Origin: Urbifossiella limnaea
GTDB lineage: Bacteria > Planctomycetota > Planctomycetia > Gemmatales > Gemmataceae
Direction: 5' to 3'
DNA: 64,000 nt
Assembly (NCBI RefSeq): GCF_007747215.1
Contig: NZ_CP036273.1
Span: 620,001-684,000 of the forward strand
Under the pieces are notes generated by a model. The model was given only the letters and a program-made list of their open reading frames with translations. It searched no databases and was not told where the DNA came from. Of this stretch, positions 8,504 through 49,843 are shown in pieces; within the stretch, counting starts at the first letter, position 1; each line of letters opens with the position of its first letter. The translations under genes and the position numbers were made by a program.

Positions 8504-8593
8504 GTGAAGGGGTGAAGGGGTGAGGGGGTGAAGGGGTGAGTTCAGAACCGGGTTCGTCACCCCTTCACCCCCCTCACCCCCTCACCCCTTCAC
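8504..8593. repeat. Inverted array of GGGGTGAA-type words
   Basis: The left array (8504-8540) repeats GTGAAGGG/GTGAGGGG words. A 16-base core (8541-8556, containing GAACCGGGTTC) follows, and then the reverse-complement words in 8557-8593. The whole can fold into one long hairpin. It separates the MoaD-like gene from the 114-aa gene inside the cluster and may attenuate read-through. It belongs to the same structural class as the arrays at 25.5, 27.2, 43.5 and 49.8 kb. Confidence 0.85.
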
Positions 8594-23760: not shown

Positions 23761-24558
23761 TCACCGCCGGGGGACGGGGAGGACGGCGGCTTCCGGCACC
23801 CACCCGGCGGCGCCGCCGGCGAGCTCCACCTGCACCCACCCGCCGCGGCGGCCGAGCTCGCGGGCCTCGGCGCCGCGCGGCAGCCTGGGTTCGAGCCGCG
23901 GCGGGTAGCTGTCGGCGTTGCCGCGGCGGAGGAACACGTCGGCGGCGACGACCACGACCGGCCGGGGGTCGCGGCGGGCGTCCTGCCACAAAAGCGCGGC
24001 GAGCGCGGCGAGCGCGGCCAGTGACAGGGCACTGACGCCGAGCCACGCCGGGGCGCGGGTCATGGCGAGCCGGGCGGCGGCGAGCCCGGCGGCGAGCGCG
24101 AAGACGGCCACGAGCGCGAACGCTTCCGCCGCCGAGACCCGCGAGCCGAACGGGCGGGCGGTGGCGGGGCGGCACTGGTCGGTGAGGTCGCCGGTGTGGG
24201 GGTAGTCGACGGCGGCGCGGGCGTCGTCCAGTTCGACGCGCAGGTCGCGGTCGGCGGGGGCGACGGCGAGCGCCTCGTGGAGGGCGACGACGGCGGCCGG
24301 CAGGTCGCCGGCGAGGCGGCGGCAGCGGGCGCGGGCGAGGCCGACGGCCGGGTTGCGGCGGCCGCCCTGCCACAGGGCGTCGTAGGCGGCGGCGGCGGCG
24401 CGGAAGTGCGGCCGGGCGGCCGCGGCGTCGTCCCTGGCGGCGACGCCTGCGGCGAACTGGCGGGCGGCTTCAGCGGCTAAGTCGGCGGGGGCGGGGGAGT
24501 GCGCCGCGGCCGGGGCAGCGGCGAGGAGCGCGACGGCGACGGCGGCGCGGAGGGTCAT
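23761..24558 (-). CDS. BatE-like protein with TPR and SH3-like regions
   Basis: A 265-aa exported membrane protein. It has a signal peptide (MTLRAAVAVALLAAAPAAAH), a TPR-like region (about 30-110; AAEAARQFAAGVAARDDAAA and LPAAVVALHEALAVAPADRD), two membrane helices (about 145-185), and a C-terminal SH3-like segment (VFLRRGNADSYPPRL...GGWVQVELAGGAAGWV). This order matches BatE of Bacteroidetes-type Bat operons. The start overlaps the BatD-like stop by 4 bases (ATGA). Function in those operons relates to envelope stress; here it is inferred. Confidence 0.72.
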   Translation of the reverse strand: MTLRAAVAVALLAAAPAAAHSPAPADLAAEAARQFAAGVAARDDAAAARPHFRAAAAAYDALWQGGRRNPAVGLARARCRRLAGDLPAAVVALHEALAVAPADRDLRVELDDARAAVDYPHTGDLTDQCRPATARPFGSRVSAAEAFALVAVFALAAGLAAARLAMTRAPAWLGVSALSLAALAALAALLWQDARRDPRPVVVVAADVFLRRGNADSYPPRLEPRLPRGAEARELGRRGGWVQVELAGGAAGWVPEAAVLPVPRR

Positions 24559-25544
24559 TCCGCCGCCTCCAGCCGGGCCACCAGCGCCTCGGCCGCGGCG
24601 GCGAGTGACACCGCGGTGTCGGGGGTCGGCGCGAACCGGGCGGCGTCGCACGCCCGCAGGAAGGCTTCCACGGCGTCCGCGCCCGCGACGCCGAGCGCGG
24701 CCAGCGCCGCGGCCGCCTCCGGCGGCGTGTCGGCGCCCGGCGGCAGCGGGTACCGCGCCCGCAGGTAGCCGATCACCGCCGCGGCGCACGCCGCCGCCGG
24801 GTCGGCCGACCGGCCCGCGGCGCGGACCGCCGCCAGCGCCCGCCGCGCTGCCCGCGACCGCCGCCGCCGCGCGAGCCGGGCCGCGTCCGGGTACGCCGCC
24901 CGCCACGCCGCGTACCACCCGACCGGCGTCAACACCGCCAGCGCCGCCAGCGCGGCCCACGCCGCCGGCCCCGGCGCGAACGGCTCGTCGTCCAGCAGCC
25001 GCGCCCCCGTCTCGACGACGAACATCCGGTCGGGCGCGTCCAGCGGCACCGCGGGCGGTGCGGCCGTCGGCGGCGCGGCCGTCACCGTGATCTTGACCCC
25101 GAGCGCGCGGGCGTTCTGGTAGCGCCGCTCGGGCGCGGCGTCGGCGTTGAAGTAGAAGAAGTTCAGCCCCGGCACGTCCGTCACCCCGCGGGTCCGCGGC
25201 CGCAGTCGGTACGCGAACGCCAGCCCCTTCGCCGCCACCGGCCCGGGCACGTCCTCGACGACGAATCGGTCCGTGAAGTCGGCGACTTTCGCCAGGTCGG
25301 GCCGCTTCACCTCGGCGGGGTTGGTCGCGCCCGTGACGGTGAGCGTCGCCACCACGGCTCCGCCCTCGGGGACGGTCGTGGGCGTCACGTCCCAGCGCGC
25401 CTTCACCGCGGTGCCGCGGGCGCCGTAGTAGCCTTCTTTCGGCTCGAAGAAGCTCGGTTGCCTCGCAGGGATGAGGGATGAGGGATGAGGGATGAGGAAG
25501 ACCAGCACGACGAACGTCGCTCGGGTGATGGCGGGTCGGAGCAT
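24555..25544 (-). CDS. BatD-like protein, signal sequence built partly from a repeat
   Basis: A 329-aa protein. The region about 50-165 (WDVTPTTVPEGGAVVATLTV, LRPRTRGVTDVPGLNFFYFN) resembles the beta-rich BatD/oxygen-tolerance domain. A membrane helix (about 195-215) and a helical cytoplasmic tail follow. The N-terminal signal contains FLIPHPSSLIP, which is encoded by the AGGGATG array at 25467-25497 read in the other direction, so the repeat supplies much of the hydrophobic core. The stop overlaps the BatE-like start. Proteins with VWA domains (BatA/BatB), usual in such operons, are absent from the window. Confidence 0.7.
   Translation of the reverse strand: MLRPAITRATFVVLVFLIPHPSSLIPARQPSFFEPKEGYYGARGTAVKARWDVTPTTVPEGGAVVATLTVTGATNPAEVKRPDLAKVADFTDRFVVEDVPGPVAAKGLAFAYRLRPRTRGVTDVPGLNFFYFNADAAPERRYQNARALGVKITVTAAPPTAAPPAVPLDAPDRMFVVETGARLLDDEPFAPGPAAWAALAALAVLTPVGWYAAWRAAYPDAARLARRRRSRAARRALAAVRAAGRSADPAAACAAAVIGYLRARYPLPPGADTPPEAAAALAALGVAGADAVEAFLRACDAARFAPTPDTAVSLAAAAEALVARLEAAE
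25467..25494 (+). repeat. Left array, four AGGGATG units
   Basis: Four perfect tandem 7-mers AGGGATG, inside the 5' coding part of the BatD-like gene. It is the exact inverted counterpart of the array at 25920-25947, and the four-helix-bundle gene lies between the two. Confidence 0.95.
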
Positions 25545-25547
25545 CGG

Positions 25548-25922
25548 TTACCCCTTCCTCGCTTTGACCTTCTTGGAGATCGTGGTGAGGATGGCGATGA
25601 GCTGTTCACACTCTTCCCGCAGCGCGGCGACCCGTGCGGGCGGCACCAGCCCGGCGTCCACGAGCAGCTCGAGCCAGTAACTCGTCTCTTCTAATTCTTT
25701 CAGGCAATCACCCAGCTTCGACACGAACTCGGCGTCAGACCGCGCCCGGTGAGCTTCGCGGAAGTTGGCACCGACCGACGTGCCGGACCGCAACACCTGC
25801 CGGCCGATCACGTCTGCTTCAGCCTGCTTTGGCAACACCCCATACATTCGGATAATGCGGACCGCGAACTGCTTGGTCCGCACGCGCAGGTCTACTCGTT
25901 CGGCCGGCTCCGTCTGGTTCAT
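25548..25922 (-). CDS. Four-helix-bundle protein (S23/IVP type), array-flanked
   Basis: A 124-aa helical protein of the family first seen in 23S rRNA intervening sequences: RTKQFAVRIIRMYGVLPKQ, GRQVLRSGTSVGANFREAHR, SDAEFVSKLGDCLKELEETSYWLELL and a basic tail. Relatives also serve as accessory proteins of diversity-generating retroelements, but no reverse transcriptase is nearby. Its ATG (25922-25920) is the last ATG of the right array, and the previous unit's AGGG sits 7 bases upstream as ribosome binding site. It interrupts the Bat-like operon between the TPR gene and the BatD-like gene. Function unknown. Confidence 0.85.
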   Translation of the reverse strand: MNQTEPAERVDLRVRTKQFAVRIIRMYGVLPKQAEADVIGRQVLRSGTSVGANFREAHRARSDAEFVSKLGDCLKELEETSYWLELLVDAGLVPPARVAALREECEQLIAILTTISKKVKARKG

Positions 25923-25947
25923 CCCTCATCCCTCATCCCTCATCCCT
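25920..25947 (-). repeat. Right array, four AGGGATG units (inverted)
   Basis: Four perfect 7-mers, CATCCCT on the plus strand, the inverse of 25467-25494. The last unit provides the start codon of the four-helix-bundle gene. The stop codon of the TPR gene lies only 10 bases beyond the array. Confidence 0.95.
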
Positions 25948-25957
25948 TCCCGAGTCC

Positions 25958-26806
25958 CTACCAATCCTTGACCCCCGGCCGGTCCGCCCCGGCGACCGCA
26001 CGGAGCAGCCCCTGCCGCTCCTTCCGCAACCGCTCCTCCGTCTGGCGGAGGTACGCCCGCGTCTCCTCGGGGCTCAGCGGGCGGGCCGTGTCGTCATTGG
26101 CCAGCGGCCGCAACTGCGGACCCACCCCCGCCGTCGGCTGCTCGGACTTGCTGCCCGGCTCCTGCGTCGGCTGCACGCCCGCCGGTTTGGTCTGCTTCGT
26201 GTTCGACGTGTCGGTCGAGCCGTCCTTCCCGGCCTGGTCATGGCGCGTCTCGGGCTCCGAGCCGGCGGTCTGCGGGGGGGGCGGCTGTTGCAGGTCCTCG
26301 GGCGTCGGGGCGTTCGGGCTCTCCGGCCGCGGCGCCTTGCGGGCGGCCTCGGCCCACAGCAACTTCGCCAGCTCGATCAGCCGGCGGGCGTCGGCCTTCA
26401 GCGGGTCGTCGGCGCCGGGGGATTCGCGGCACCGCTCCAGGCACGCCACCGCGGAGCGGTAGACGGCCGCGTCGCCGCCGCGCTTCAGCAGGCAGACGCC
26501 GCGGTTGTACCACGCCCGCGCCGCGCGTGTCGGCGGGCAGTCGCGGTCGTCCAGTGCGCGGGCGTAGAGGACTTCGGCGTCGTAGAACCGGCCCTGCGCG
26601 GCCCGCACCGCGGCGGTGTTGTACGCGACCAGGCCGGGGTCGGCGGTGCGCTCGGCGGCGGCGGCATAGAGCGGGTCGGCGGCGGCCGGGTCGCCGGCGA
26701 GCATGACGGCGTTCGCCCGGCGGACGAGGTCGTCGGCCGGCTGCCCGGCGGCGACGGCGACCGCGGCGGCGAACAGACCGGCGGCGATCGGGAGGCGGCG
26801 CGTCAT
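25958..26806 (-). CDS. BatC-like TPR protein
   Basis: A 282-aa exported protein: signal peptide (MTRRLPIAAGLFAAAVAVAA), TPR-like helices at about 25-165 (ADPGLVAYNTAAVRAAQGRF, ARAWYNRGVCLLKRGG), then a hydrophilic Pro/Gln/Thr-rich linker and a charged end (EETRAYLRQTEERLRKERQG) as in BatC. The start is the ATG of the signal peptide; the longer frame would fuse it to the cupin coding region in another frame and is rejected. It follows the cupin gene after 26 bases and precedes the array-flanked four-helix-bundle gene. Confidence 0.75.
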   Translation of the reverse strand: MTRRLPIAAGLFAAAVAVAAGQPADDLVRRANAVMLAGDPAAADPLYAAAAERTADPGLVAYNTAAVRAAQGRFYDAEVLYARALDDRDCPPTRAARAWYNRGVCLLKRGGDAAVYRSAVACLERCRESPGADDPLKADARRLIELAKLLWAEAARKAPRPESPNAPTPEDLQQPPPPQTAGSEPETRHDQAGKDGSTDTSNTKQTKPAGVQPTQEPGSKSEQPTAGVGPQLRPLANDDTARPLSPEETRAYLRQTEERLRKERQGLLRAVAGADRPGVKDW

Positions 26807-27163: not shown

Positions 27164-27279
27164 GGGAGGGAGAGGCTGAGGGACCGTGGGGCTGAGGGAC
27201 ACAGGGACAGAATACGAAGCCTCGTGCGTCTTCTGTCCCTGTGTCCCTGTGTCCCTCAGTCCCACGGTCCCTGAGTCCC
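27164..27279. repeat. Inverted array of GGGACnCA-type words
   Basis: The left arm (27164-27210) and right arm (27233-27279) are inverted copies built of words such as CTGAGGGACACAGGGACA. The innermost 28 bases match at all but one position; the outer parts diverge. The 22-base core is 27211-27232. It lies between the start of the cupin gene and the stop of the STN-like protein gene and could act as a terminator for the latter. Confidence 0.85.
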
Positions 27280-27285
27280 ATTACC

Positions 27286-42074: not shown

Positions 42075-43448
42075 GTGAACGACCCCCTCATCGCCCGATT
42101 CGCCGAGGCGTGCGGCGCCACCGGACCGCTCGACCTGCGGGTCGGGCTGCCGGACGGCCGCGTCCTCGCCGAAGGGTCCATGCCGCAGCCGTTCACCCTC
42201 ATCGGCCGCGACGACGCCTGCGACGTGACCCTGACGGACCCCGACGTCCACCCCCGCCACGCCTGGATTCAGGTGCTCGACGGCCGCGCCTACGCCCTCG
42301 ACCTGGGGAGCCGGGCCGGCGTCGTCTGGCCCGACGGGACGCGCGGCCCCGGCTGGATGGAGCCGGGCGTGCCGCTGAAGGTCGGCCCGTTCCGCGTCAC
42401 CCTGCGGAACCCGGTCTCGGCGCGGCCCGGCCGGTTCGAGGTGCCGCCGACCCAGGGCGACCCGAACCTGACCGCCACCCGCCCCGGCGTGCAGCTCGAA
42501 TTCCGCAGCGGCCGCCCGCCGAAGGACCGCTGGGCCATCAACCGCGTCCTCACGCTCGTCGGCAAGTCCGAGGCGTGCAAGCTGAACCTCCTCGCCGACG
42601 ACGTGGCCCCGTACCACTGCGGCCTGGTTCTGACACCGACCGGGTTGTGGGTCGTGGACCTGTCCGGCCAGGGCGTGGTGGTGAACGGCGAGCGGATGCG
42701 CGTCGCCCCGCTGCCCGACGGCGCCTCGCTGTCCGTCGGCCGGTTCCACATCGGCTGCCGCTACCCGGTCCCGACCGACACGCCGAGCGGCCTCCGCCTC
42801 CGCACCGGTCGCGCCGCCCCGTCCCGCACCACGAAGCCCGTTCCGCCGCCGCCGGACGACGAGGTGCCGCTGGGCGGGATGCCGACGCTCGACTCGGCCA
42901 CGGGGCTGCCGAGCTCGCACATCCTGCACGGGGCGTTCCGCCGGCCGAACTCGTCCGGGGCGATGTCGGCGCCGATCCTGCTGGCCGCCGGCCCGGCGTC
43001 GGACGCGGCGCCGGCGGGAAAGTCGGGGCGGATCGGTTCGTCGATCCCGGCGCCGCCGGAGGCCCTTGCCGACCACCCGGCCGCGGCGCTGATCGGCCAG
43101 CTGGCCGAGATTCACGGCCAGATGTTCGAACAGTTGCAGCAGGCGCTGCTGATGATGGCCCGGCTGTGCGGGCAGATCCGGGCGGGGCGGGCGGCGGCGG
43201 CGGAGCAGGAGTTGATCCGCATCAAGGAGCTGAACGCCGAGCTGGCCCGGTTGCAGGGCGAGGTGACGCGGCTGGCGCTGGCCGAGGCCGGGTCGAAGGA
43301 GATGCGGGCGCTGGACGAGACCGCCGTCGGCACCGCCGGCAGCGAGGCGATCCACGACTGGGTGCAGGAGAAGATCGGCAAGCTGCACCGCGAGCGCCGC
43401 GAGCGGTGGGACACGCTCGTGGGGCTGTTCGCGGGCGGGGGGGAGTAG
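42075..43448 (+). CDS. Protein with two FHA domains
   Basis: A 457-aa cytoplasmic protein. FHA domain 1 (about 25-115): FTLIGRDDACDVTLTDPDVHPRHAWIQ. Domain 2 (about 150-235): LTLVGKSEACKLNLLADDVA, with Gly-Lys instead of Gly-Arg and Tyr-His in place of the usual Ser-x-x-His, so phosphothreonine binding may be altered. A Pro-rich linker and a C-terminal coiled coil (about 340-457; AAEQELIRIKELNAELARLQ) follow. Likely a phospho-dependent scaffold. GTG start. The stop TAG touches the array at 43447. Confidence 0.85.
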   Translation: MNDPLIARFAEACGATGPLDLRVGLPDGRVLAEGSMPQPFTLIGRDDACDVTLTDPDVHPRHAWIQVLDGRAYALDLGSRAGVVWPDGTRGPGWMEPGVPLKVGPFRVTLRNPVSARPGRFEVPPTQGDPNLTATRPGVQLEFRSGRPPKDRWAINRVLTLVGKSEACKLNLLADDVAPYHCGLVLTPTGLWVVDLSGQGVVVNGERMRVAPLPDGASLSVGRFHIGCRYPVPTDTPSGLRLRTGRAAPSRTTKPVPPPPDDEVPLGGMPTLDSATGLPSSHILHGAFRRPNSSGAMSAPILLAAGPASDAAPAGKSGRIGSSIPAPPEALADHPAAALIGQLAEIHGQMFEQLQQALLMMARLCGQIRAGRAAAAEQELIRIKELNAELARLQGEVTRLALAEAGSKEMRALDETAVGTAGSEAIHDWVQEKIGKLHRERRERWDTLVGLFAGGGE

Positions 43449-43533
43449 TCGTTGGGAGTCGTTGGGAGTCTGCGGGAGTGGGGGAGTATGAACCCTGCCG
43501 GACTCCCCACCCCCGCAGACTCCCAACGACTCC
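43447..43533. repeat. Inverted word array left of the second four-helix-bundle gene
   Basis: The left part holds words AGTCGTTGGG twice and AGTCTGCGGG once, then a core with GTATGAACCCTGCCGG, then the inverse words (CCCGCAGACT, CCCAACGACT). It can fold back on itself. It begins in the stop codon of the FHA gene and ends 2 bases before the stop codon of the four-helix-bundle gene. Confidence 0.9.
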
Positions 43534-43534
43534 G

Positions 43535-43927
43535 CTACTGTTTCTTTCCCGCCGCCGCGATCACCCACTTCTCCGGGTGCGCCCGCATGGCGACGAGCAT
43601 CCGGATTACTTCCTCGTAAGCGGTGTGAAGGGCCACACCCGTCGCCCGGTCGAGGTATTCGCAACGGACGGCGAACGCGACCCACGTCTGGGACTCGGCC
43701 GCCTCACCCTCAGCGTCGGCAATCTTGGCGACGAACGAGCCCTCGTACATCCGCCTCCGCCAAGCCTCGGCCAGGTTCGCGCACACCGACCGGGTCGCCC
43801 GCCTGCCCTGGTCCGTCAACGAATACGCTTCCGCCTTCGGGAACCCCTTCGACGCCTCGAACCACGCCATCGCGGCGTCGAACGCCTTCTTGTAGACGTC
43901 GAGTTGAAAGTGCGACTCGGCCCACAC
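43535..43927 (-). CDS. Four-helix-bundle protein (S23/IVP type), second array-flanked copy
   Basis: A 130-aa helical protein: ESHFQLDVYKKAFDAAMAWF, SLTDQGRRATRSVCANLAEA, WRRRMYEGSFVAKIADAEGE, and a basic end. It is clearly of the same broad family as the gene at 25548 but only distantly similar. GTG 43927 (VWAESHF) is chosen as start because the alternative ATG 43966 would translate repeat-array sequence. Like the first copy it sits between inverted word arrays and between unrelated genes (FHA and purC). Function unknown. Confidence 0.8.
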   Translation of the reverse strand: MWAESHFQLDVYKKAFDAAMAWFEASKGFPKAEAYSLTDQGRRATRSVCANLAEAWRRRMYEGSFVAKIADAEGEAAESQTWVAFAVRCEYLDRATGVALHTAYEEVIRMLVAMRAHPEKWVIAAAGKKQ

Positions 43928-43948
43928 GCGTCGGCCCCCCGTATCTGT

Positions 43949-43991
43949 ACTCCCGCAGACTCCCAACGACTCCCGCAGACTCCCAACGACT
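43949..43991 (-). repeat. Word array right of the second four-helix-bundle gene
   Basis: On the minus strand the words AGTCGTTGGG and AGTCTGCGGG alternate, two of each, using the same two words as the left array but in inverted orientation. It ends 2 bases before the stop codon of purC. Confidence 0.93.
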
Positions 43992-49746: not shown

Positions 49747-49843
49747 GGGACTTAGGGACTCAGAGACTCAGGGACTCAGGGACGGAACGAACCGGTCGGC
49801 TCTTGTCCCTCCGTCCCTCGGTCCCAGTGTCCCTCAGTCCCCC
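49747..49843. repeat. Inverted array of GGGACTCA-type words
   Basis: The left arm (49747-49785) has GGGACTTA, GGGACTCA, GAGACTCA, GGGACTCA, GGGACGG. The core AACGAACCGGTCGGCTCTT is at 49786-49804. The right arm to 49843 is made of GTCCCT words. It directly abuts the aceF stop codon and the start of the WD40 gene, both on the minus strand, and could terminate aceF transcription. Confidence 0.85.

Follow-up and report, generated by a model that had tools for sequence, protein, structure and literature searches.

The short gene bracketed by inverted AGGGATG arrays at 25467-25947 of the 64,000-nucleotide stretch analysed here (the window) probably represents a selfish mobile cassette, about 480 bp long and of the type of the intervening sequences (IVS) of 23S rRNA, in which an S23 gene lies between inverted arms made of tandem short words, and which would spread by S23-promoted copying and be tolerated by virtue of its RNA stem. 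Inverted arms surround S23 genes as a general rule in many phyla, and on plasmids of Nostocales gene and arms are together present in one allele and absent from another. The 23S rRNA intervening sequences are best read as special cases of this cassette, and the gene-less hairpins that are scattered over the genomes as its satellites.

The S23/IVP proteins are a large, functionally uncharacterised family that owes its name to an accidental location in rRNA. The structure described below gives S23 genes an anatomy in common and a reason why they are found at such scattered places, CRISPR loci included, and an S23 gene appears to mark widespread, largely overlooked mobile DNA. The first-pass annotation of the window knew of no description of such an element. 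This holds for the combination, since no open-access PMC paper was found that links S23 genes with heptamer arrays or otherwise joins the parts, but not for the parts themselves, which are already known separately: S23 in rRNA intervening sequences, heptamer repeats, and IVP genes in cas loci.

The window cassette and its S23 protein

The cassette of 481 nt is located at the joint of a TPR gene and a BatD-like gene and not in an rRNA gene. Its parts and the two ORFs that make up the target context are:

24555-25544, - strand: BatD-like ORF, target context; its 5' end contains the downstream arm
25467-25494, + strand: arm of four AGGGATG units, the downstream arm as seen from the S23 gene
25548-25922, - strand: S23 / 23S rRNA IVP four-helix-bundle gene, 124 aa (PF05635, TIGR02436)
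25920-25947, - strand: inverted arm of four AGGGATG units, the upstream arm of the S23 cassette
25958-26806, - strand: TPR protein ORF, target context; terminates shortly before the upstream arm

The description of four AGGGATG units and four inverted units around an S23-type gene proved to be exact. The units start at 25467, 25474, 25481, and 25488 on the + strand and at 25920, 25927, 25934, and 25941 on the - strand, and the whole window contains no AGGGATG outside these eight. As a count the word is ordinary on its own (8 observed versus 3.6 expected in the window); a perfect 28-mer of four units has an expectation of approximately 5e-13 per window. The family matches of the gene product are significant, with E 6e-21 for PF05635 (23S_rRNA_IVP) and E 5e-27 for TIGR02436 (four helix bundle protein).

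Both arms reach into coding sequence. The ATG of the S23 gene falls within the last AGGGATG word of the upstream arm, and the downstream array is translated as LIPHPSSLIPHPSSLIP within what appears to be the signal peptide of the BatD-like ORF. This ORF has no Pfam or NCBIfam match of its own, and its orthologues are recognisable across the family. The BatD-like signal peptide (25450-25544) is thus partly array-encoded, and relatives have other array-like signal peptides at this place (FILHPSSFIL).

The AlphaFold model of the S23 protein (pLDDT 95) shows a bundle of four helices, and its best structural matches are the S23 proteins 2RLD and 2GSC, with Z values of 16-18. Next comes Avd in particles of diversity-generating retroelements (DGRs; 4DWL, 8UB7, 8UB8) with a Z of about 13, to be read against the 12-13 that unrelated helical bundles reach. 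Xcc0516, an S23 protein of the same family from Xanthomonas, is a pentamer (PMC4990558). S23 has no known catalytic domain; the invariant residues are Q, S, N, and E. At the RNA level the cassette is predicted to form a 29-bp terminal stem (z -5.8).

The full set of S23 genes in the source genome

A second S23-type gene of the window had likewise been reported to lie within inverted arrays of other words, and we recovered this arrangement:

43447-43479, + strand: GTCGTTGGGA / GTCTGCGGGA words that form one arm around this gene
43535-43966, - strand: second S23 / IVP gene; the actual start is probably internal to the ORF
43949-43981, - strand: opposite arm of the same cassette, inverted

Seven PF05635 genes are present on the single 7.8-Mb contig of the source genome, and by inspection all seven have inverted short-word arms, those of locus L003 being degenerate. 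Each locus uses a different word, namely AAGGGGTG, TCATTCG, GTCGTTGGGA with GTCTGCGGGA, AGGGATG, a GATTGATG-like word, AAGGATG, and for L003 CAGTTGG/AATTTGG. Six of the seven cassettes are found at 59-665 kb, that is, within the first 0.7 Mb of the contig. Copy L007 (genome 6188277) has a partial family match in one frame and the remainder in another, and is probably frameshifted. A 1.26-Mb sample of the genome showed two classes of inverted word arrays. One consists of compact hairpins that contain no gene and have loops of 4-65 nt, the other of five pairs with a long spacing of 365-545 nt, four of which enclose an S23 gene.

Inverted arms are the rule around S23 genes

S23 genes are present in 50 of 68 Gemmataceae genomes, in one to eight copies each. 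For quantification of the arms, the 350-bp flanks on either side of a gene were compared for their highest-scoring inverted repeat, which was accepted at a score of at least 15, and 900 windows of the same geometry taken from the same loci served as controls in Gemmataceae. Arms were detected at 83 of 97 Gemmataceae S23 genes versus 21 of the 900 control windows. A wider set was obtained from a scan of named genomes, which gave 80 S23 loci, 78 of them arm-tested, from Acidobacteria, Proteobacteria, Firmicutes, Bacteroidetes, Verrucomicrobia, Chloroflexi, candidate phyla, and archaea; here 63 of 78 loci had arms versus 3 of 475 controls. At the chosen threshold arms went undetected in 31 of 185 S23 genes.

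It is clear from these numbers that arms around S23 genes are a general rule across many phyla and not specific to Gemmataceae, an association that overlaps the known 23S rRNA intervening sequences. The proposal of a packaged gene had been considered vulnerable on two points, namely that most S23 genes might be without arrays, and that arrays might be equally common elsewhere. In both groups most S23 genes turned out to be armed, and control windows only rarely so. A chance pairing of simple repeats with S23 genes is ruled out by the same control windows.

Of 154 armed cassettes, 127 have a period of 7 and 18 a period of 8. Arms of period 7 have a median length of 33 nt and most often comprise four to five units. 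The 127 heptamer cassettes contain 100 distinct word classes, so that the word changes at nearly every locus. Upstream arms are rich in G (38%) and poor in C (14%), and many of the words fit AG[T/G]NNTC.

Filled and empty sites

A comparison of strains for empty sites had been proposed as a check, and Nostocales plasmids indeed yield alleles with and without gene and arms. On plasmids of Trichormus and Scytonema an S23 cassette is positioned between two genes beside a TrbI/VirB10 gene, and on plasmids of Microchaete, Tolypothrix, Aulosira, and others the same joint is uninterrupted, with flanks approximately 98% (97.9%) identical. The filled junctions read AAAAAGTAAT - cassette - GTAATTAACA and the empty site AAAAAGTAATTAACA, which gives a 5-bp target duplication, GTAAT; at other sites the target duplications are short or not clear-cut. 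Plasmids pNsp_a and pNsp_c of Nostoc ATCC 53789 have one operon in common with cassettes at different joints, between a 441-bp and a 288-bp gene on one plasmid and between the 288-bp and a 1542-bp gene on the other, and each plasmid therefore provides the empty allele of the other. Neither the TrbI site of Trichormus nor the 441/288-bp joint of Nostoc contains any array in its empty form, so arms and gene arrived together at those two sites.

A further case comes from a cas locus. In Anabaena 90 an S23 cassette with AGGTGAC arrays is found between cas6 and cas4, and in Dolichospermum this interval contains no S23; the aligned flanks are 98.7% identical and the intervening sequence differs from that of Anabaena 90. 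Because the insert is array-flanked in the one and absent in the other, it looks like an insertion and not like a cas component, and it may account for reports of IVP genes as CRISPR-associated. The locus with the cassette (L246) is on the Anabaena sp. 90 plasmid pANA02 (type I-D locus), and L253 is the Dolichospermum relative without it.

Two cassettes of one genome (L126 and L129 in G023) are 88.5% identical from array to array and have unrelated flanks. Decayed copies were also found (L252 and L259); of L252, which lies at the Trichormus site, a single arm and the beginning of S23 remain. The cassettes L238 and L247 are inserted antisense to the host operon, which argues against capture solely from sense transcripts. 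Some Gemmataceae cassettes have kilobases of homologous flank across species, with differing words, and we regard these as old insertions on the strength of their flanks.

Collectively, these comparisons indicate that gene and arms insert as one unit into intergenic joints, and that the cassette is very likely mobile. The evidence for mobility consists of alternative alleles. The suggestion of a mobile or amplifying cassette thus gains support from sites that are resolved to the base in filled and empty form, and from the gene-less hairpins of the same words described below.

The window site in relatives

S23 is absent from the TPR-BatD joint of every relative in which this joint is readable. 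Five relatives have inverted word arrays there that are gene-less, with loops of 39-75 nt containing the BatD start; their arms are AAGGATG in G008, G010, and G012, AGTGATG in G018, and a weaker pair in G019. The remaining relatives with a readable joint show no such inverted pair, so that the site is found in three states among the genomes. Because of the gene-less arms in the five relatives, the S23 gene may at this site have been gained or lost inside pre-existing arms rather than having arrived with them. A cassette may have arrived and lost its gene, or a gene may have entered an existing hairpin.

Words follow S23 lineages and recur in gene-less hairpins

Within an S23 lineage the word tends to be retained, as judged from pairs of non-orthologous loci. 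In such pairs the similarity of the arms is 0.15 where protein identity is low and climbs to 0.46 where it is 70-85%, and arm and protein similarity are correlated with a Mantel r of 0.27, a value reached in none of 1000 permutations. The source-genome locus L005 and L155 from another genus both have AGGGATG arms, with 73% identical S23 coding sequences and unrelated flanks. Likewise, the CAGGAGT/CAGAATT word recurs with related S23 genes at several distinct plasmid sites in Nostocales.

The gene-less hairpins were compared with the cassettes of their own genome. In the source genome (G000), 17 of 20 sampled gene-less hairpins have a 12-mer in common with the genome's own S23 arms, against a baseline of seven random cassettes of other genomes, which matched 1.7 hairpins on average and 10 at most. 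The 400-kb samples of G016 and G006 gave own-word matches for 0 of 3 and 1 of 2 hairpins, both small samples.

Exact arrays of six words were then counted over the 68 genomes. The AAGGTGAC array occurs 167 times in G023, which has two cassettes of this word, and at most eight times in any other genome. AGGACAG arrays peak in G007, G016, and G063 and AGGGATG arrays in G067 and G000, with a matching cassette in all five cases, and G000 has 81 AATGACG arrays. Where the genome has a cassette of the word in question, 10 of 13 genome-word pairs reached at least 10 exact array matches, and where it has none, 7 of 395 did. This comparison is descriptive because the genomes are related, the words were drawn from cassettes, and some of the matches lie inside cassettes. 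It appears from these counts that cassette-bearing genomes tend to hold many gene-less copies of the cassette's word. Orphan arrays exist as well: G008 has 35 exact GTGTTTG array matches and zero S23-family genes, and G018, G014, G009, G004, and G005 have many arrays of a word for which a matching S23 cassette was not seen. In the window one gene-less pair is a putative satellite hairpin:

8504-8593, no strand assigned: gene-less inverted pair of AAGGGGTG, the word of cassette L001 elsewhere in the genome

Further gene-less inverted pairs of the window are located at approximately 27170-27280 (GGGACAC/GGGACTGAG) and at 49747-49842 (GGGACTC).

A model for the cassette and its alternatives

In the model that we favour, the arms would fold into a hairpin, in DNA or in RNA, and S23 would bind hairpins of its own word and promote the copying of the cassette to new sites. 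Gene-less hairpins would also be copied by S23, in trans. Cutting and joining would be left to host enzymes or to a borrowed reverse transcriptase. In the transcript, the RNA stem would let RNase III remove the insert, as has been measured for rRNA intervening sequences, and we propose that for this reason an insertion between co-transcribed genes or in rRNA does little harm. The separate steps deserve different degrees of trust. For the processing of the window cassette by RNase III we would put the chances at even, and that S23 acts on its own word we rate slightly below that. If S23 does recognise a short word that is copy-specific, the cassettes would constitute natural protein-hairpin pairs whose specificity can be read from the sequence, and the element would be a mobile one without a recognisable transposase.

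The main rival to this model puts the word hairpins first, which would arise and spread through a host process (slippage in replication together with template-switch correction of palindromes), and makes S23 a passenger homing into their loops, with the arms as its target and not as part of the mover. The gene-less arms of five relatives at the BatD site, with their 39-75 nt loops, fit such an order of events, as do the GTGTTTG arrays of G008, a genome without S23, and the variation of the words at almost all loci (100 classes in 127 cassettes). We nevertheless consider it unlikely, because at the TrbI site of Trichormus and the 441/288-bp joint of Nostoc the empty alleles are without arrays, same-genome copies have both arms and gene in common, and at non-orthologous loci word and S23 lineage vary together. 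Rather improbable, in our judgement, is that the cassette is non-autonomous cargo, moved by a Y1 transposase or by a resident reverse transcriptase while S23 only stabilises the RNA of the element. The best Y1 gene of the source genome lies beside other palindromes and not beside heptamer arrays, and the window holds no reverse transcriptase match, which weighs against the missing catalytic domain of S23, its resemblance to Avd, the partner of a reverse transcriptase, and the presence of three Y1-type and eight reverse transcriptase matches in the genome.

A useful role in the host, with S23 as an RNA chaperone and the word hairpins as regulatory sites in mRNA, could explain why several Gemmataceae cassettes are fixed in place across species with kilobases of homologous flanks, and why one arm serves in the BatD signal peptide. 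It is hard to reconcile with the patchy presence of S23 (50 of 68 genomes, 1-8 copies), the polymorphic sites, the absence of a common target function, and the decayed copies L252 and L259, and we give it very little credence. For a purely accidental coincidence of simple repeats and S23 genes the only argument is the richness of the source genome in such arrays, and in view of the 21 of 900 and 3 of 475 armed controls its probability is negligible.

With the favoured model in mind, a wider class can be sketched tentatively. Its members would occur across many phyla and encode a four-helix protein without catalytic activity, which would recognise hairpins built from the 7-nt word that belongs to it and get them copied to new sites. 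Protein and word would co-diversify, gene-less arrays would be satellites, and the heptamer repeats of cyanobacteria and Xanthomonas as well as the rRNA intervening sequences would stem from this single system. We hold this generalisation to be possible, with the doubts on balance prevailing. The S23 genes may in this way connect two unexplained observations, the rRNA intervening sequences and the heptamer arrays of Calothrix, Nostoc, and Xanthomonas.

Relation to known systems

The intervening sequence in the 23S rRNA of Coxiella burnetii is 428 nt long, has a 28-bp stem, and is excised by RNase III; rRNA intervening sequences in general are sporadic and acquired horizontally (PMC4990558). 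The window cassette is similar in size and stem (481 nt and 29 bp), in that a terminal inverted repeat encloses the S23 ORF in its loop, and in its sporadic insertion, with empty alleles at the sites of relatives. It differs in that it lies outside rRNA, its stem consists of tandemly repeated words, these words are locus-specific, and gene-less copies of them are dispersed.

Heptanucleotide repeats have been described from Calothrix, from Xanthomonas (GGGAATC), and from Nostoc (GGGGA(C/T)T) as intergenic and often of four units, with 70-75 convergent inverted pairs of GGGAATC in Xanthomonas; S23 is unmentioned in that report, and the repeats are called generally not associated with mobile elements (PMC4692102). 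The arrays found here are intergenic tandem heptamers of the same kind, with the difference that their inverted pairs are tied to S23.

Genes annotated as 23S_rRNA_IVP have been reported in cas loci (PMC3936711, PMC10910872) and belong to the same protein family as the window S23. The homing of DGRs requires a DNA hairpin at the target (PMC3240598). S23 has its fold in common with Avd of the DGRs, but unlike in a DGR no reverse transcriptase stands next to it; all eight RVT_1 matches of the source genome lie outside the window. From IS elements and MITEs, which have constant terminal inverted repeats and target duplications of fixed length, the cassette differs in that the arms vary between copies and a target duplication is clear at the GTAAT site only.

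In REPIN-RAYT systems a Y1 tyrosine transposase gene is flanked by inverted repeats, and gene-less palindromes of the same sequence, with a conserved GTAG or CGTC tetranucleotide, are dispersed in the genome. The repeat-bracketed gene with dispersed gene-less copies is a similar arrangement (17 of 20 hairpins in G000, with 0 of 3 and 1 of 2 in the small samples of G016 and G006), but the bracketed gene is PF05635 and not Y1, and the repeats are heptamer arrays of many words. The Y1 gene of the source genome was considered as the source of the hairpins and rejected, as it adjoins unrelated CAGGCYGAAGGCCTG palindromes and not heptamer arrays. This gene, L261 (genome 118501-118836), and the palindromes next to it possibly form a separate REP-like system.
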